A stretch of DNA of 34,815 bases from a virus: positions 1 through 34,815 of IMG/VR virus record IMGVR_UViG_3300027741_003327, one strand, 5' to 3'. Numbering within the stretch: the stretch's first letter is position 1; each line of letters begins with the position of its first letter. Below are positions 10,791 through 24,596 of the stretch, one piece after another. Under the pieces are notes generated by a model that was given only the letters and a program-made list of their open reading frames with translations, was not told the origin of the DNA and did no database searches. The translations under genes and the position numbers were made by a program.

Positions 10791-11192
10791 ATGGAAGGTA
10801 AAATCACACTGGTTACTCCACCAGATGTTTTTGAAAACAACAATTTGGGCGTGTTGTTTGTAAACATCAGTGAACTAGACCAAGATCTGACCAGTGAATG
10901 GTTAGAAAAAACAGAAATTCAACAAGACATCAATATCTATGTTTATGATAGTCAACACCATCATGATACAAAATGGCTATTATATGCCATGAATTGCTGC
11001 AACTATGCTTTTATTGACTTGGATCGAGCTGATAATTTGGTAATTGCGCTAAGTAGTTATATGTTAAGCATTTCCAATTCAAGCATATATTATAAAGTCA
11101 GCGATTCAGATTTGGCCGAAACCTATAAATTGGTCAATTTAAATCGTGTTCAGCGCATAGAAGATTTCTTGGAGAATTTAGTCAGTGAGTAA
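10791..11192 (+). CDS. Conserved phage protein of unknown function, 133 aa
   Basis: Begins MEGKITLVTPPDVFENNN, has alternating strands and helices (INIYVYDSQ, YAFIDLDRADNLVIALSSYM), and ends in an acidic helix. The fold may be a small alpha/beta domain. It starts 4 bases after the upstream stop and overlaps clpX by 8 bases, so the three genes from 9320 to clpX are likely one operon. No function is assigned. Confidence 0.82.
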   Translation: MEGKITLVTPPDVFENNNLGVLFVNISELDQDLTSEWLEKTEIQQDINIYVYDSQHHHDTKWLLYAMNCCNYAFIDLDRADNLVIALSSYMLSISNSSIYYKVSDSDLAETYKLVNLNRVQRIEDFLENLVSE

Positions 11193-12429
11193 TGTCAAGA
11201 ATATTCATGAATCATGCAATTTCTGCGGCAAAGGCAAAGAATCAGTTGAAAAGCTAATTCAAGGCGGCGACGTATATATCTGCAATGGGTGTGTAGAAGT
11301 ATGTTCTGACATATTAAAAGATGAAAAAAATAAAAAACAGGGCAAAGAGCCTACTGTATTAAATCCAGCAAAGATCAAAGATTATCTAGACGAATATATT
11401 ATTGGCCAAGATGATGCTAAAATGGCTTTGTGTGTGGCGGTTAGTCAGCATTTCAAACGTATCAAGAATCCCAGCAAGGAAATTCAATTAGAAAAAACTA
11501 ATTGTATTTTACTAGGGCCAACTGGTGTTGGAAAAACCATGATGGCTCGTAAGATTGCAGAGTACATGGATATTCCATTTGCAATCTGTGATGCCACTAG
11601 TATTACTGAAGCGGGATACGTGGGCGATGACGTTGAAAGTATTCTAACTAGATTAATTAATGCAGCCGATGGAGATATTGATAAAGCCAGTCGCGGTATT
11701 GTCTACATTGATGAAATAGATAAATTAGCCAGAAAATCTGAAAACTCTTCCACGACACGAGATGTGGGCGGAGAAGGTGTGCAACAAGCTCTATTGAAAA
11801 TGGTAGAGGGTAGTATCATGCGTGTACCCACTTCTGGCAAGCGTAAACATCCCGGTGGGGATATGCAGGAAATTGACACCAGAGAAATATTGTTTATATG
11901 CGGTGGAGCATTTGTTGGATTAGATAAAATCGTGGGTCAGCGCATTGACGGTAGAAGCATTGGATTTCATTCCAGTAACAAGGTTGTGGAAAAAGCACAG
12001 GAAAATGTTGGAGAATTATACCAGCGTGTCATGCCCAAGGATTTGGTTCAATTTGGATTTATACCAGAGTTTATTGGAAGATTTGGTATCATTACTCATG
12101 TCAACGAACTTACCACTGAAGAATTAGTGCGGGTCCTCAAAGAACCCAAAAATAGTATTATCAAACAATATCAATACTTGTTTGAATTAGATGGAATTAA
12201 ATTAACATTTGAAGATAAATGTTTGGAAGACGTGGCAGAAAAAGTCAAAGAACTCAAAACCAATGCACGTGGTCTTAAATCTGTACTAGAAAAGATACTG
12301 ATTCCCTATGAATTTGATGCTGTTAACCTTGTAGAACGCGGTTTAACTGAGATTGTGATAAATAGTTCATCAGTTAATGGCGACCCTGCTATTCTGATAT
12401 TTGACAAAAAAGCCAAGAATGAACAATAA
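11185..12429 (+). CDS. clpX: ATP-dependent unfoldase ClpX
   Basis: Full-length 414-residue AAA+ protein read from a GTG start. The N-terminal zinc domain has C11-x2-C14 and C33-x2-C36. Walker A GPTGVGKT is at 111-118, pore loop GYVG at 144-147, Walker B VYIDEID at 173-179, the RKH-like loop GKRKH at 218-222, and arginine-finger box EFIGRF at 295-300. The loop that docks ClpP keeps IGF at 259-261, so it should be able to pair with a ClpP; none is encoded in this window. It probably redirects the host ClpP to phage-chosen substrates or acts alone as an unfoldase (inference). Its stop overlaps the bS21 start by 11 bases. Confidence 0.96.
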   Translation: MSNVKNIHESCNFCGKGKESVEKLIQGGDVYICNGCVEVCSDILKDEKNKKQGKEPTVLNPAKIKDYLDEYIIGQDDAKMALCVAVSQHFKRIKNPSKEIQLEKTNCILLGPTGVGKTMMARKIAEYMDIPFAICDATSITEAGYVGDDVESILTRLINAADGDIDKASRGIVYIDEIDKLARKSENSSTTRDVGGEGVQQALLKMVEGSIMRVPTSGKRKHPGGDMQEIDTREILFICGGAFVGLDKIVGQRIDGRSIGFHSSNKVVEKAQENVGELYQRVMPKDLVQFGFIPEFIGRFGIITHVNELTTEELVRVLKEPKNSIIKQYQYLFELDGIKLTFEDKCLEDVAEKVKELKTNARGLKSVLEKILIPYEFDAVNLVERGLTEIVINSSSVNGDPAILIFDKKAKNEQ

Positions 12430-14342: not shown

Positions 14343-14786
14343 ATGACTAATCAACATCAAGTAATGCGTTTTGACACTTCAGCACTAAACCGAGCCCTAG
14401 TTGGATTTGACAGTATGTTCAATGACTTGGAAGATAGGTTTGCCAATCAAATCAACCAAAACTACCCACCTTATAATATCGTTAAACGGTCTGAAGACTC
14501 GTATGAGATTCAACTTGCCGTTACCGGTTTTGACAAGGATGAGATCACGGTTGAAATTGATCAAAACCAATTGATTGTTCGTGGTCAGCATTCTGATCAA
14601 ACCAATCAAACTGGGGAATATTTACACCATGGATTGGCTAATCGTGATTTTATGAGAAATTTCACGTTGGCTGAACACATGGAAGTGGGTCAGGGCAAAA
14701 TCAAAAACGGTGTACTCACCATTGAGATTAACCGTGTTGTTCCTGATGCACTTAAACCCAGAGTGTTAAAACTCAAGGCAGAATAA
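14343..14786 (+). CDS. Small heat-shock protein (Hsp20/alpha-crystallin)
   Basis: A 147-residue chaperone. Residues 40-140 form the alpha-crystallin domain: YEIQLAVTGFDKDEITVEID, then QLIVRGQH, then GKIKNGVLTIEINR. It ends with an I/V-x-I/V-like tail (PRVLKLKAE) used in oligomer assembly. It prevents aggregation of unfolding proteins. Hsp20 genes are common in T4-like phages of aquatic bacteria. Here it has a long structured leader with a strong ribosome site (AAAGGAGAAAAAAG) and is followed by a stable hairpin, so it is expressed as its own unit or at higher level. Confidence 0.94.
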   Translation: MTNQHQVMRFDTSALNRALVGFDSMFNDLEDRFANQINQNYPPYNIVKRSEDSYEIQLAVTGFDKDEITVEIDQNQLIVRGQHSDQTNQTGEYLHHGLANRDFMRNFTLAEHMEVGQGKIKNGVLTIEINRVVPDALKPRVLKLKAE

Positions 14787-14851: not shown

Positions 14852-15163
14852 GTGCCTAAGACAGACGACCTAGTGATTGAAAAAAAGAAAACTACATCTA
14901 AGAAACTAAAGCCGCCCAGTAAATTCAAAGTCGTTGTTTGCAATGACAATGTAACCACAGTGGATTTTGTTGTGCATATGTTAATGACTGTATTCAATCA
15001 TTCGCTAGAACAAGCAATTCAAATTACTCAAGCGGTTCATGAAAATGGATCTGGTATTGCAGGAATTTACCCACATGAAATCGCTGAACAAAAAGTATAT
15101 GAGGGTGTTGAGTTAGCCAGAACCAACAAATTTCCGCTGGTATTAAAACTAACAGAAGCATAA
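14852..15163 (+). CDS. clpS: ClpS, N-end-rule adaptor for ClpAP
   Basis: A 103-residue protein from a GTG start with an AAGAGGAC ribosome site. PPSKFKVVVCNDNVTTVDFV, then VHMLMTVFNHSLEQA and then VHENGSGIAGIYPHEIAEQK match the ClpS core. ClpS binds proteins with N-terminal Phe, Leu, Trp or Tyr and hands them to ClpA; it also blocks other ClpA substrates. Binding-pocket residues Asn31, Asp32 and His63 (E. coli N34, D35, H66) are kept. The gatekeeper Met40 of E. coli is Val37 here, which may alter residue choice (inference). It partners ClpA, not ClpX, so the phage touches two Clp systems. Confidence 0.94.
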   Translation: MPKTDDLVIEKKKTTSKKLKPPSKFKVVVCNDNVTTVDFVVHMLMTVFNHSLEQAIQITQAVHENGSGIAGIYPHEIAEQKVYEGVELARTNKFPLVLKLTEA

Positions 15164-15165
15164 TT

Positions 15166-15690
15166 ATGAGCTTAAAAGAGAAAACCGCAGCCAAACATAA
15201 ATTAGCAGAATCCACTGCTTTTATGCGGCAGGTTTTTGACGGAACATTGCCCAGAGAGCAGTGGATTGATTTTACATATCAAAAATACTGCTGGTATTCT
15301 GCTATTGAACTCAAAGCGGCAGAAGTGGGAATACTAAAATTATTACCTGGAATAGCCAGATCTTACTTGATCTATCAAGATTATGTTGCCATGACTGATG
15401 GCAAGCTGGCGCACGATTTCAACACAGTATCGTTGGGGTATGCTCATTATATTCAGTCGTTGAAATTTCCCAGCGATATTATAGCGCATTTATATACATG
15501 GCATATGGGCGACATGTACGGCGGTCAAATGATTGCCAAGCTTATTCAAGAACCTCATAGTCATTTAATTTTTGAAAATCGTGATCAATTAATTGCTACG
15601 ATTCGAAGCCTAATCAATGATGACATAGCTGGTGAAGCCAATATAGCCTTTGATTGGGCTATCAGAATCCTACAAACTTATGACAATTGA
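15166..15690 (+). CDS. Heme oxygenase
   Basis: A 174-residue all-helical protein. The proximal heme ligand is in KHKLAESTAFM (His11), with the family pattern H-x2-AE-x4-FM. The distal helix motif GDMYGGQ at 115-121 corresponds to GDLSGGQ of known heme oxygenases. It opens heme to biliverdin IXalpha, Fe2+ and CO, using reduced ferredoxin or another reductant. It is shorter than typical bacterial and cyanobacterial enzymes (about 200-240 aa). It overlaps the next gene, a bilin reductase, by 11 bases, so the two steps are translationally coupled. Starts 2 bases after clpS. Confidence 0.92.
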   Translation: MSLKEKTAAKHKLAESTAFMRQVFDGTLPREQWIDFTYQKYCWYSAIELKAAEVGILKLLPGIARSYLIYQDYVAMTDGKLAHDFNTVSLGYAHYIQSLKFPSDIIAHLYTWHMGDMYGGQMIAKLIQEPHSHLIFENRDQLIATIRSLINDDIAGEANIAFDWAIRILQTYDN

Positions 15691-16339
15691 AGTTTGGCCA
15701 CAGATAATAGCACTGGCCGAACATTTTAATTCTAGATTCAATCAAACTGGGGTATTGCAACCTGTACAAGACTACGGGTGGCCCAACTACGTTTATACCA
15801 GCGATCAATATCGCCGTGCACATGTGGAAATCGTAGATCATCGCGATTCTCACAAGATGTATATTCTACATTGCACTATATTTCCGCACATCAATGATCC
15901 TAGTCCCATATTTGGATTTGATGTAGTATGCGGGCAACATAAAATAACTGGTGCATTTCATGACTACAGCTCTACTGGAAACACAGTCAATTCTATGTAC
16001 AAATGGTTTGAATCTCTGAGTAATAGTTACCAATGGAAAAAGCCCAGACAGTTACCTGAATGGGCTCAATCTATTTTTAGTGATAGTATAATTGCTGCCG
16101 GTAACGTTAATACTCAAGATGAATTAGACGCACTATGTGCTTTGGCCAGCAAAAGCTTAGACTATTATTTAGCCAATGTAGGCTATAATGTTGGACACAA
16201 GGATTATACGGCTGGGCAGAATAGATATTGTTATTATCAACGTCAGAATCCACACGTTGTGCGCAGCATGGTCAGCATGGGAATTGATCAAAATTTGATG
16301 CTGGATTTTGTCGACAATATGCTATTCCCTTTTGCGTAG
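15680..16339 (+). CDS. Ferredoxin-dependent bilin reductase (PcyA/PcyX-like)
   Basis: A 219-residue protein of the FDBR family, which reduces biliverdin to phycobilins. RRAHVEIVDHRDSHKMYILH followed by CTIFPHINDPSPIFGFDVV aligns with the PcyA core. Glu50, His64 and Asp81 fall at PcyA Glu76, His88 and Asp105, the proton-transfer residues. The C-terminal NRYCYYQRQNPHV and FVDNMLFP segments match the family end. It starts at ATG 15680 inside the heme oxygenase gene. The pair forms a two-step heme-to-bilin pathway. Sequence alone cannot tell phycocyanobilin from phycoerythrobilin as product. Such genes are known in cyanophages, and a divergent form (PcyX) has been reported in viruses thought not to infect cyanobacteria. 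Confidence 0.88.
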   Translation: MTIEVWPQIIALAEHFNSRFNQTGVLQPVQDYGWPNYVYTSDQYRRAHVEIVDHRDSHKMYILHCTIFPHINDPSPIFGFDVVCGQHKITGAFHDYSSTGNTVNSMYKWFESLSNSYQWKKPRQLPEWAQSIFSDSIIAAGNVNTQDELDALCALASKSLDYYLANVGYNVGHKDYTAGQNRYCYYQRQNPHVVRSMVSMGIDQNLMLDFVDNMLFPFA

Positions 16340-16454: not shown

Positions 16455-16761
16455 ATGACTTGGACTACACCTTCAGCAACAGATCTACGTTTTGGCTTGA
16501 CTTGAGGCCAATTAAAATTGGGTGAATTGCGGGAAACTCTAGAACAGACAATCCGCAGCCAAGCTAATCAGGGATGATTAGAAGGTTCAGAGACTAGTAG
16601 CATACCACTAGAACAGTGATGAAGCTACCACGAGCGCCCAACACCATAGAATTACGGTGATGAGATAGTCCGAACTGTATGGGAACATACAGAAATGTGG
16701 GATAAAGAGCCCACATGATAACAAAACAGTTGAAGTCACGATGTACATTGCAAATCGTTAA
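16455..16761 (+). CDS. pqqA: PQQ precursor peptide PqqA, split by a group I intron (exons 16455-16497 and 16730-16761)
   Basis: Joining 16455-16497 to 16730-16761 gives a 24-residue peptide: MTWTTPSATDLRFGF, then EVTMYIANR and a TAA stop. This closely follows bacterial PqqA, such as the Klebsiella peptide with DLRLGLEVTLYISNR. Glu16 and Tyr20 sit in the invariant E-V-T-x-Y motif; PqqE, with chaperone PqqD, links these two side chains to build pyrroloquinoline quinone. No other pqq gene is in the window, so host PqqBCDE would be needed. Unspliced RNA stops at TGA 16503-16505 after 16 residues and lacks both crosslinked residues. A ribosome site lies upstream and a terminator 15 bases after the stop. 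Too short for ordinary gene finders. Confidence 0.92.
16498..16729 (+). mobile_element. Group I intron (IA-like), 232 nt, no endonuclease ORF, inside pqqA
   Basis: All core helices can be drawn. P1: exon TTGGCT 16492-16497 with guide GGCCAA 16506-16511, giving the U-G pair at the 5' splice site. P3: TTGGGTG 16518-16524 / CGCCCAA 16635-16641. P4: TGCGG 16528-16532 / CCGCA 16553-16557. P6: CTAATCA 16564-16570 / TGATTAG 16575-16581. P7: GACTA 16592-16596 / TAGTC 16666-16670. P8: CACC 16642-16645 / GGTG 16656-16659. P9: CTGTATG 16675-16681 / CATACAG 16686-16692 with GGAA loop. P9.1: ATGTGGG 16695-16701 / CCCACAT 16710-16716. The last base is G. Extra stems between P7 and P3 (16597-16627) suggest subgroup IA, as in T4 introns. 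Confidence 0.95.
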
Positions 16762-16811: not shown

Positions 16812-16844
16812 TTAATAAATATGCTTATCCAACGAGCATATCAA

Positions 16845-17729
16845 ATGATATTAATTCTGACCAAGCAAGCTGAAACTGACTATGAAACTGCTAGGTTACT
16901 GGCGAGTTTCAAATCCAAAGACATTTCAGCCAGAGTGGCCCACCCCGACGACTTTGATATAGTGGTAGATCGTGATATCCGCAAGGGATTAAAATATCTG
17001 GGTAAATCATTTGAATTGCCACAACTGGTATTGGTCAGACTGGGTGCCGGCATATTACCATTCCAATTAGCTGTAATCAGACACTTTGAACAGGCTGGCA
17101 TACCCTGCATTAATTCTAGTGTCAGTGTAGAAACAGTCAAAGACAAGCTGCGCACCAGTCAAATATTAAGTAGAAGTGGCATTGCTATCCCCAACACCAT
17201 GATGGTGCGGTTCCCCATTGATGATAACCTAGTTGGTCACAACATCGGATTCCCATGTGTGATCAAGGTAGTCACCGGTAGTTACGGCGAAGGTGTACAC
17301 TTATGCGAAAATAAAAAAGACTTTAAAAAGCTCATGGAATTTGTTGAGAGTTTGGGCAACAGAAAGACCATGATTGTACAAGAATACTTGGGTGATCGTC
17401 CAGGAGAAGATCTCAGGGTGTTGGTGATTGGTGGAAAAGTCATGGGTGCGATGAAGCGCAGTGCCCCAGAAGGTGATTTTAGAGCTAATATTACCAATGG
17501 TGGTTCTGGTGAAGGATTTGAAGTCACTGAAGAAATTGATTTTATAGCACGTGAAACAGCCAAAACACTGGGGCTGGATATTGCAGGTATTGATTTATTA
17601 TTTGACCACCGCGGATTTAGGGTGTGTGAAGCCAATAGCAACCCAGGTTTTAGTGGATTTGAAAAGTTTTGTAACCGAGATGTAGCAGATTTAATCACCG
17701 AATATGTGAAATTTAAAATACACCAATGA
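16845..17729 (+). CDS. RimK-family ATP-grasp glutamate ligase
   Basis: A 294-residue ATP-grasp enzyme with strong likeness to RimK, which adds Glu residues to the C-terminus of ribosomal protein bS6. KDKLRTSQILSRSGIAIP marks the start of the ATP-grasp region; KVVTGSYGEGVHL (about 141-153) is the glycine-rich nucleotide loop; VQEYLG (178-183) is the hinge. RSAPEGDFRANITNGG (205-220), GIDLLF (248-253) and CEANSNPGFSGFEK (261-274) hold the acceptor and metal-binding residues. The start at 16845 is preferred over 16821 because MILILTKQ is a natural first strand. It follows the pqqA terminator and overlaps the next gene by 4 bases. The true acceptor is unknown. Confidence 0.88.
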   Translation: MILILTKQAETDYETARLLASFKSKDISARVAHPDDFDIVVDRDIRKGLKYLGKSFELPQLVLVRLGAGILPFQLAVIRHFEQAGIPCINSSVSVETVKDKLRTSQILSRSGIAIPNTMMVRFPIDDNLVGHNIGFPCVIKVVTGSYGEGVHLCENKKDFKKLMEFVESLGNRKTMIVQEYLGDRPGEDLRVLVIGGKVMGAMKRSAPEGDFRANITNGGSGEGFEVTEEIDFIARETAKTLGLDIAGIDLLFDHRGFRVCEANSNPGFSGFEKFCNRDVADLITEYVKFKIHQ

Positions 17730-18514
17730 CAAAAATTCTAATGTGTCCTCCAACACATTTTGATGTGGTCTATGACATCAATCCTTGGATGACCAACAAT
17801 CAACGATCTGTTAATTCAGTTTCTGCCAAGGCACAGTGGCAATCACTGGTCAACAAATTAGATCAAATTACAGATATTATAGAATTACCTGCCGAACCCA
17901 ATCTTCCAGACATGGTATTCACCGCCAATGCTGGATTTGTATACAAAAATACAGCAATATTATCCAAATTTTCAGTTTCCCCCAGACAACCAGAAGAAGA
18001 ATACTTTGCCAAATGGTTCAAAGATCAGGGCTATGATGTTATACAGCCAAAGAATTCTTATGAGGGGCAGGGGGATCATCTAGTAGACAGGGATGGTAGA
18101 CATTGGATTGGTACTGGATTCAGAACAACAGTTGAAGCCACAGTGGAAATCCAAGAAATTATAGGGCAACCAGTTAATGCTTTAACCTTGGTAGATCCTA
18201 GATGGTATCATTTGGATACATGTTTCTGCCCTCTGCCACGATATGGTCAAATTATGTGGTATCCAGCAGCATTTAGTAGAGAAAGTCAGGAATTAATTCG
18301 AAAATCCTTTGATATTTCTATAGAAATAACAGAAAAGCAGGCGTTATCATTTTGTTGTAATGCTGTGTGTATAGACTCAACCATTTTTATGCCAGTGGAT
18401 GTGGATTTGTATAATAAATTAAAGAAACTGGCCTATATCGTAGAGCAGTTTGATCTTAGGGAATTTTTGAAATCTGGTGGATCTGCCAAATGTTTGGTGT
18501 TACGGCTTGACTAG
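17726..18514 (+). CDS. Arginine dihydrolase/amidinotransferase-superfamily enzyme (ArgZ- or DDAH-like)
   Basis: A 262-residue guanidine-modifying enzyme. The N-terminal MCPPTHFDVVYDINPWM resembles the opening of cyanobacterial ArgZ/AgrE arginine dihydrolases. MVFTANAGFV, EGQGDHL (Glu113, Asp117, His118), WYHLDTCFCPL (His162) and SGGSAKCLVLRL (Cys256) give the acid-His-Cys catalytic set of the superfamily. ArgZ turns arginine into ornithine, ammonia and CO2; DDAH turns methylarginines into citrulline. The opening motif favours the former, but the substrate is not proven. The start overlaps the RimK-like gene (ATGA), so the two are translated together and may act in one process. Confidence 0.82.
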   Translation: MTKILMCPPTHFDVVYDINPWMTNNQRSVNSVSAKAQWQSLVNKLDQITDIIELPAEPNLPDMVFTANAGFVYKNTAILSKFSVSPRQPEEEYFAKWFKDQGYDVIQPKNSYEGQGDHLVDRDGRHWIGTGFRTTVEATVEIQEIIGQPVNALTLVDPRWYHLDTCFCPLPRYGQIMWYPAAFSRESQELIRKSFDISIEITEKQALSFCCNAVCIDSTIFMPVDVDLYNKLKKLAYIVEQFDLREFLKSGGSAKCLVLRLD

Positions 18515-23023: not shown

Positions 23024-23263
23024 ATGTCTGAAAATAAGAAAAATCGTAGAGTAGCAGATCCATTCAAAACCAAAACTGGCAAAACCAGAATGGGGCCATT
23101 GAATCGTGAACAACTGATGAAATTTATTGAATCAGCATCCAAGCCCAAACATCGTGCCATGGCACAACGGGTCTATGACCGGAAATATGGGCATCTAGTT
23201 GTAGAAACTCCGGTGGTAGAGTCAGTGGATACCCAAGAAGTAACTCCCGAAACATCTAATTAA
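23024..23263 (+). CDS. Small basic protein of unknown function, 79 aa
   Basis: Lys/Arg-rich N-terminal half (KKNRRVADPFKTKTGKTRMG) and a helix (REQLMKFIESASKPKHRAMA), then an acidic, Val/Thr-rich tail. An AGAGGAATATACC ribosome site precedes the ATG. Follows rpoZ by 16 bases and is probably in the same transcript. Charge suggests nucleic-acid or ribosome/polymerase contact, which is only a guess. Confidence 0.72.
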   Translation: MSENKKNRRVADPFKTKTGKTRMGPLNREQLMKFIESASKPKHRAMAQRVYDRKYGHLVVETPVVESVDTQEVTPETSN

Positions 23264-23281
23264 TATAATAAGGAAAACAAA

Positions 23282-23470
23282 ATGGCATACGATATCAGAG
23301 CAGTAAAAATTGGCAAAGACATCAAACGTGCAACGTGCATGATCAAAGATAAACATGTGCGTGGAGAATTCTTGCGTAGCTATGTAAAAATCGCCGAAGA
23401 TGAAGGCAGGATGCGCAGTAGTCGCAATCGTGGAGATCGTGACACCAAGAGCACCGATGATGGTAAATAA
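23282..23470 (+). CDS. Small basic protein of unknown function, 62 aa
   Basis: Reads MAYDIRAVKIGKDIKRATCM and continues with a helix (RGEFLRSYVKIAEDEG), ending in a polar Arg/Asp-rich tail. An AAGGAAAACAAA ribosome site is clear. Third gene of the rpoZ run. Not recognised. Confidence 0.7.
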   Translation: MAYDIRAVKIGKDIKRATCMIKDKHVRGEFLRSYVKIAEDEGRMRSSRNRGDRDTKSTDDGK

Positions 23471-23492
23471 TATAGAGGAGGACATACCTACT

Positions 23493-23681
23493 ATGACCAC
23501 ACCAGCACCAAAGAAAAGTAAAAATCCATTTATTAACTTGGTTAATGAAGCAAACGCAGCAAAACATGTCCCAGTCACCGATGAAACCAAATTGGAGTTG
23601 ACTGTGCCTAAAGCAGCAAAATTAAAGAATCAAGTACAAATTAACAAACCTACCAAACGCAGCGCAGGTCGGGGTCGTTAA
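23493..23681 (+). CDS. Small basic protein of unknown function, 62 aa
   Basis: The ATG at 23493 follows a strong GAGGAGGA site 12 bases upstream. MTTPAPKKSKNPFINLVNEA is followed by an Ala/Lys-rich segment and a basic end, KPTKRSAGRGR. Likely disordered apart from a short helix. Last gene of the rpoZ run. Not recognised. Confidence 0.7.
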   Translation: MTTPAPKKSKNPFINLVNEANAAKHVPVTDETKLELTVPKAAKLKNQVQINKPTKRSAGRGR

Positions 23682-23707
23682 TAGACTTAAGTACTAGGTC
23701 AATGGTG

Positions 23708-23740
23708 ATACACGTGGATATAAATAATATCCATGTGTAT
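23708..23740 (+). promoter_or_regulatory. Hairpin spanning the start codon of the Ntn-hydrolase gene, containing a T4-late-type element
   Basis: ATACAC-g-TGGATAT (23708-23721) pairs with ATATCCA-t-GTGTAT (23727-23740) around loop AAATA. The start codon ATG 23733-23735 is inside the 3' arm. TATAAATA at 23719-23726 is an exact match to the T4 late promoter and would place the RNA start at about the ATG. No Shine-Dalgarno sequence is visible. Confidence 0.65.
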
Positions 23741-24596
23741 TGTACTAGGAAAATATTTTGAAGGTATAGGATGGGTCGGGGTCAAGAACCGTGATCGAAA
23801 CTATGTACCTACCATTTCATTCAAAAACAAATCTCTCAAAGACGGGCTAGAGATTATGTATTACGAAGATCAAGACACCAAGTATTGTGAAGGTATTAAT
23901 TCGCAAGGTGTTGCTATTATCGGTGCCAGCCTCATGGTCAAAGACGATGAAATGGAAATAAAAAGTAGAAAAAAGATTGGCACTGAAAATTCTGGCACCA
24001 AAATCAAACATGGGTTGGAACAAAGTACTGCAAAAGATGCTGTCAAAGCGTTGATTGATAAGAAATTAACAGGCAACACCTTGGTATTTGATCAAGAAAA
24101 TATGTATATTTTGGAAGGAGCATGGCGTCCTAACGAATACAAAACCAAGGGATATTCATACAAAGTACAACACATTCCGCATGATCAGGTTATTGCACGA
24201 ACCAATCATGGTGTGATACTTAAATGGACCGGGTATCAGCACACAGGTGAAAAAAAGCAAGATTTAAAAAGAATCAGCAGTGAAGCGCGTTTACTTGTTG
24301 CCAATTTTGTTGGACAACAATCCCAAGAACCTAATGAAATGCTTGATGGACTGACCATGAAATTCAGTGATAACCCACAACTCAATGGGCTTCGTACATC
24401 GACACAAGCATCCAAAATGCGCACAACAGCCCAGATCATGTTGATTCCCAGCGAAAAAACCTTGTATTTCAGACCAGTTCAAAGTAACATTAAATTTGAT
24501 TTTTGGGAATTAAATCACCCAGAACAACAGACTTGGGTAGAAGTATTAAGCAATCGCCCAGCCTATCAACATTTGATTGACCATTCTGCCAAATAA
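23733..24596 (+). CDS. N-terminal-nucleophile hydrolase (penicillin acylase/C45-like)
   Basis: A 287-residue protein starting Met-Cys2 (MCIVLGKYFEGIGWVGVKNR), the arrangement in which Met removal leaves Cys as nucleophile. The following KNRDRNYVP segment fits the conserved Arg/Asn-Asp region of cholylglycine hydrolase and acyltransferase (peptidase C45) families. GINSQGVAIIGASL and HVIART-like HDQVIARTNHGVIL fit the strands that carry the Asn and Arg of the site. These enzymes cut amide bonds such as those of N-acyl amino acids, homoserine lactones or conjugated acids. The substrate is unknown. The N-terminal Cys fixes the start despite the missing ribosome site. Confidence 0.8.
   Translation: MCIVLGKYFEGIGWVGVKNRDRNYVPTISFKNKSLKDGLEIMYYEDQDTKYCEGINSQGVAIIGASLMVKDDEMEIKSRKKIGTENSGTKIKHGLEQSTAKDAVKALIDKKLTGNTLVFDQENMYILEGAWRPNEYKTKGYSYKVQHIPHDQVIARTNHGVILKWTGYQHTGEKKQDLKRISSEARLLVANFVGQQSQEPNEMLDGLTMKFSDNPQLNGLRTSTQASKMRTTAQIMLIPSEKTLYFRPVQSNIKFDFWELNHPEQQTWVEVLSNRPAYQHLIDHSAK

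Follow-up and report, generated by a model that had tools for sequence, protein, structure and literature searches.

A phage heme oxygenase and bilin reductase pair at the end of a conserved hsp20-clpS operon, with phycocyanobilin as its most likely product

We analyzed a DNA stretch of 34,815 nucleotides from a virus (IMG/VR record IMGVR_UViG_3300027741_003327, positions 1 to 34,815), hereafter called the window. It contains a heme oxygenase (HO) gene followed by a ferredoxin-dependent bilin reductase (FDBR) gene, the last two genes of a four-gene unit. The features discussed here are:

11185..12429, + strand: ClpX-like AAA+ unfoldase, an upstream proteostasis gene (AAA_2, E 7.7e-30; zf-C4_ClpX, E 6.7e-14)
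14343..14786, + strand: small heat-shock protein Hsp20, first gene of the four-gene unit (PF00011, E 5.3e-19; phrog_432)
14852..15163, + strand: ClpS, N-degron adaptor of the ClpAP protease, with a GTG start (PF02617, E 2.5e-25)
15166..15690, + strand: heme oxygenase (vHemO), 174 aa (PF01126, E 1.2e-14)
15680..16339, + strand: FDBR of the PcyA/PcyX (AX) lineage, Glu50 type, 219 aa (PF05996, E 2.8e-16)
16455..16497, + strand: pqqA exon 1 (MTWTTPSATDLRFG plus the first base of a Phe codon)
16498..16729, + strand: group I intron in pqqA, 232 nt, ORF-less (Rfam RF00028, 93.9 bits, E 3.8e-23)
16730..16761, + strand: pqqA exon 2 (..FEVTMYIANR, stop)

Both enzymes score well above the cut-offs of their families, the HO with 55.1 bits against PF01126 (cut-off 23) and the FDBR with 60.3 bits against PF05996 (cut-off 31). 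Aligned to solved heme oxygenases, the HO retains the proximal His and the GDxxGGQ distal helix. The best solved structure for the FDBR is PcyX (5OWG, E 4.8e-44). The FDBR reading frame extends upstream of the ATG at 15680 and the mechanical ORF call starts at an upstream TTG, yet the ATG is most likely the true start. Both genes are intact, and they overlap by 11 bases (15680-15690), an overlap that an earlier note on this DNA had described. Counted from this ATG, His48, Glu50, His64 and Asp81 align with His74, Glu76, His88 and Asp105 of PcyA, in agreement with that note, which had listed Glu50, His64 and Asp81 as retained. His48, His64 and Asp81 are invariant across all 159 aligned FDBRs. 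These features support a complete heme-to-bilin route, with enzyme activity predicted from sequence. The phage HO would draw on host reductant to open host heme, yielding biliverdin IXalpha, Fe2+ and CO; for a phage HO of this kind, conversion to biliverdin is shown only in the relative CB_2 (PMC11480375). The overlapping FDBR would then reduce biliverdin by four electrons to give a phycobilin.

The nature of this phycobilin can be predicted from the column of residue 50, which among the 159 FDBRs holds Asp in 92, Glu in 53 (that of the window among them), Ser or Asn in 12, Gln in 1 and His in 1. A direct count places Asp55 of the PcyX of Pelagibacter phage Mosig in this column, and the Asp set includes both 5OWG and Mosig PcyX. 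The Asp55 of phycoerythrobilin (PEB)-forming PcyX is replaced by Glu in the window FDBR, which we therefore did not file as a PcyX. The FDBR of phage CB_2, whose HO yields biliverdin, also lacks Asp55 and yields phycocyanobilin (PCB) (PMC11480375). Because the window enzyme has Glu50 (PcyA Glu76) instead of Asp55, and the CB_2 enzyme without Asp55 makes PCB, its product is most likely PCB and not PEB. This Glu-to-PCB rule draws on a single characterized freshwater phage enzyme and PcyA, and the window FDBR shares a low identity of 33.8% with the nearest isolate enzyme, Mosig FDBR. Ser or Asn at the PcyA Glu76/PcyX Asp55 position was seen in the phage FDBRs of loci L006, L026, L032, L034, L051-L054, L061, L065, L068 and L077; the products of these enzymes are unpredictable and may include new bilins.

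In a phylogenetic tree, the window FDBR falls within a 33-row clade of Glu-type phage enzymes (support 99/96), with that of locus L007 as its sister (99/94). This clade stands apart from the PcyX clade and from cyanobacterial and cyanophage PcyA and PebS, and the window enzyme is placed in the AX lineage with phage PcyX/PcyA rather than with cyanobacterial PcyA or PebS. PebS and some other rows form long branches, and only this coarse split was used. FDBR relatives were found in 20 of 50,697 annotated phage records, 19 from cyanophages and one from Mosig. Searching IMG/VR with HO patterns yielded 80 loci, of which 74 carry an FDBR and two of these carry two, while FDBR peptide patterns gave no match there; a scan with the Mosig FDBR added 80 more loci. 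A genome scan with the FDBR alignment returned only two contigs of metagenome-assembled genomes (MAGs), one with phage-like tail proteins. The MAG contig of locus L166 (PBPT01000016.1, 335 kb, binned as Neomarinimicrobiota) carries a phage-type FDBR and the tail repeats described below, and is probably a misbinned large phage.

The gene order hsp20-clpS-hemO-fdbr, with the HO-FDBR pair at the operon end, recurs in 60 of the 75 related loci that have enough upstream flank. In these 60 loci the spacing is mostly 0-13 bases from clpS to hemO and 28-78 bases from hsp20 to clpS. Among 56 non-redundant loci (90% HO identity), Hsp20 stands at position -2 in 40, ClpS at -1 in 37 and FDBR at +1 in 50 of 55, and beyond the four genes the best neighbor family reaches only 17/56 upstream and 10/53 downstream. 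The loci were chosen by similarity to the window HO and share ancestry, which favors shared context, and the counts thus measure conservation rather than independent occurrences. The window ClpS aligns with Escherichia coli ClpS across the ND..T and AVH regions. A ClpX-like gene was found in 15 related loci, and many have ClpX and a metallophosphatase at a greater distance upstream of the operon. The clpS-hemO-fdbr segment also recurs on a 357-kb contig retrieved through pqqA (G079). No T4-late-like TATAAATA boxes adjoin the operon. The literature searched, covered in part, makes no mention of ClpS with HO-FDBR cassettes, and the main text of PMC11480375 is silent on a coupling to hsp20-clpS.

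The pair itself, which the earlier note had described in a phage suggestive of a non-cyanobacterial host, belongs to a published type: vHemO-vPcyA/PcyX cassettes have been reported from pelagiphages and from a freshwater phage of predicted Methylocystis, with PCB synthesis by the freshwater member shown biochemically (PMC11480375). It is a sound new member of this type in a variant context, and the operon, tandem PcyX- and PcyA-type reductases, tail repeats and pqqA intron go beyond the literature searched. CB_2, a pmoC-phage (PMC11480375) with a predicted Methylocystis host (PMC7674155), is, like the window, a large freshwater phage with an HO and an AX-lineage FDBR without Asp55. It carries alaS and pmoC, whereas only 8 of 50 related records here have alaS; pmoC gave no match in the records searched, with an uninformative control. 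The marine HemO-PcyX systems (PcyX_EBK42635, PDB 5OWG; pelagiphage Mosig EXVC030M) resemble the window in their adjacent, overlapping phage genes and AX-lineage FDBR but have Asp at the Glu50 position, make PEB and form a separate clade, and the marine loci retrieved through the Mosig enzyme gave no ClpS or Hsp20 matches. Cyanophage PcyA and PebS (P-SSM4, P-RSM4, P-SSM7 and P-SSM2) belong to the same enzyme superfamily and likewise to T4-like phages, but occupy separate branches at a long distance in the tree, and the hsp20-clpS-HO operon is absent from the regions of these cyanophages that were read.

Could the window nonetheless come from a phage of a cyanobacterium, its genes maintaining phycobilisomes as proposed for cyanophage PebS and PcyA? 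T4-like cyanophages do carry HO and FDBR genes. However, the window FDBR does not belong to the cyanophage PcyA/PebS lineages, psbA was found in 0 of 50 related records, pqqA adjoins the pair and the window NrdB is nearest to those of Xanthomonas and Stenotrophomonas phages, and we regard a cyanobacterial host as extremely unlikely. The earlier note's argument from missing photosystem and lyase markers holds for the part of the window that was scanned, where no such gene was found, but carries little weight in a virus fragment of 34.8 kb; genes for photosynthesis, lyases or phycobiliproteins could be present in the remainder of the phage genome. The note's non-cyanobacterial host is backed by the position of the FDBR outside cyanobacterial and cyanophage clades, by the psbA result and by published HO-FDBR kin, which infect Pelagibacter or, by prediction, Methylocystis (PMC11480375). 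The nesting within cyanophage PebS/PcyA that the note had named as a refutation was not seen in the tree. Phages of methylotrophs that bear pqqA have also been described (PMC7678222). The host is probably a non-photosynthetic aquatic bacterium, and pqqA, the affinity of NrdB and the pelagiphage and methanotroph phage kin suggest a proteobacterium.

The purpose of such cassettes in non-photosynthetic hosts was termed "still enigmatic" by the authors who characterized them (PMC11480375), and the operon, the tandem reductases and the tail repeats allow specific tests of why these phages make bilins. We think it fairly likely that HO and FDBR form a working auxiliary metabolic pathway, most likely to PCB, encoded by the distal half of the hsp20-clpS-hemO-fdbr unit of large T4-like phages whose aquatic hosts are not cyanobacteria, and that this pathway serves to supply a specific bilin, the release of iron being incidental.

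The composition of the operon also suits a different purpose, the salvage of iron from heme. Hsp20, ClpS and ClpX would aid the host Clp machinery in unfolding and degrading host hemoproteins, HO would free iron for iron-dependent phage enzymes, among them the class I ribonucleotide reductase of the window, and FDBR would merely clear inhibitory biliverdin. In line with this, HO-FDBR shows a conserved link to ClpS and Hsp20 and has ClpX close by, the window holds NrdA and NrdB, and the literature has raised an iron-supply role (PMC11480375). Hsp20 by itself carries little weight, since T4-like cyanophages and their relatives generally have it among their core genes (PMC7674155). Nearly all loci retain FDBR, and in two (L045:9971-11853 and L066:10001-11863) it is doubled, HO being followed by an Asp-type (PcyX-like) and then a Glu-type (PcyA-like) enzyme. 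Removal of biliverdin should not require a doubled FDBR, and tandem reductases with different catalytic residues are hard to explain by iron release alone. Iron salvage as the purpose is possible but doubtful. The retention of FDBR and the tandem Asp- and Glu-type enzymes instead argue that the bilin counts, and not only the iron.

During infection, a wanted bilin could supply the chromophore of bacteriophytochromes or other photoreceptors of the host. Bacteriophytochromes use biliverdin itself, which would make the FDBR superfluous. PHY domains were found in 0 of 50 related phage records, so that the phytochrome-type signaling considered in the earlier note finds no support in phage gene content. 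The HO and PcyA of CB_2 can build a functional phytochrome on co-expression with Cph1 in E. coli (PMC11480375), but overall we judge this use of the bilin very unlikely.

Another potential destination for the bilin emerged from a search of the relatives for phycobilisome proteins, which gave matches inside giant proteins. These are built with tandem repeats of ~140 aa, up to 18 in one protein of 3849 aa, and one repeat-bearing giant protein has an Mtd_N domain, typical of tail fibers. PF00502 exceeds its cut-off in three giant proteins (29.3, 41 and 23.7 bits). Against all PDB sequences, the top matches of a 10-repeat profile were phycobiliproteins (best E 4.8e-5), with a more diverse repeat profile giving weaker matches (best E 0.0039). 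An AlphaFold model of the repeat, of moderate confidence (pLDDT 71.8), matched phycobiliprotein structures in all 50 PDB matches listed, with TM values of about 0.4-0.6 and modest Foldseek E-values (from 7e-3). In phycobiliproteins the Cys of the C-x-R-D motif carries the bilin (PMC10151467), and 59/60 and 26/28 repeats retain this motif. It served to select the seed repeats but not the later profile matches, though the profile favors it. The PF00502 scores, PDB profile, structure model and motif conservation led us to reject helical noise as the source of the PF00502 matches. Tandem phycobiliprotein-like domains were observed in giant tail fiber or baseplate proteins of loci L168-L170, L187-L216 and L285-L289, and repeat-bearing virion proteins occur both in cyanophages and in HO-FDBR phages.

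The bilin may thus be attached to the virion, through these globin-like domains, in pigmented particles with roles in photoprotection, light or redox response, or fiber folding. The virion itself would then be a biliprotein in phages of non-photosynthetic bacteria, whereas cyanophages with the same domains would take host bilin. Besides the phycobiliprotein-like matches and the near-invariant motif, both the tail domain and an FDBR were found in 9/9 tested contigs >200 kb, namely five found through HO (G006, G021, G030, G037, G045), two through the tail domain (G064, G068), one through pqqA (G079) and the 335-kb Neomarinimicrobiota MAG contig. Among isolates (50,697 records), the repeat queries matched one marine single-cell virus and otherwise only cyanophages; S-PM2 and P-HM2 are cyanophages with the repeat. 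The contig of L007, the locus with the closest FDBR relative of the window, is 322 kb long and bears seven repeats. Against this, the complete 141-kb Mosig genome has HO-FDBR and no tail domain, ruling out a strict rule that the pair always comes with the domain, and of 12 HO-FDBR contigs of 100-200 kb only 3 have it, the other 9 being mostly fragments. The repeat is also absent from the 34.8-kb window fragment and from the P-SSM2 fibers adjoining its HO. An exact-motif scan of the HO loci found none, as these loci end 10 kb from HO. Common descent of one large-phage group may be a sufficient alternative for the co-occurrence of tail domain and FDBR. Bilin lyases were not found in the related records (CpeT 0/49, CpeS 0/49), while bilin-binding globins that accompany pre-PcyA load bilins without lyases (PMC10151467). 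These pre-PcyA/BBAG clusters of heterotrophic bacteria resemble the phages in combining a non-photosynthetic FDBR with phycobiliprotein-related globins; the globin is a separate protein within the cluster (PMC10151467), whereas in the phages globin-like repeats lie within giant tail proteins elsewhere. On this evidence we consider a virion-bound bilin unlikely. If the virion domains do bind bilin, they would represent a new use of the phycobiliprotein fold, and we know of no pigmented phage particle described earlier.

The alaS gene is present in both tandem-FDBR records, L045 and L066, and two alaS genes carry one in-frame stop each (G018 37892-39079 and G032 23070-24239), which may reflect sequencing error, readthrough or decay. 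In the window, the pqqA that the earlier note had reported is present, but a group I intron interrupts it. The intron has a P1 with a U-G pair at the 5' splice site, a terminal G and a fold z of -3.3, and its splicing is predicted to restore MTWTTPSATDLRFGFEVTMYIANR, a 24-aa PQQ precursor. Intact viral pqqA genes terminate in RFGFEVTMYIANR or RYGFEVTMYIANR, and the gene is unsplit in all 53 IMG/VR contigs that share the pqqA end of the window. Further downstream (16821-18514), a RimK-like ATP-grasp ligase gene is directly followed by one for a DDAH-like amidino hydrolase, which possibly form a modification pair.
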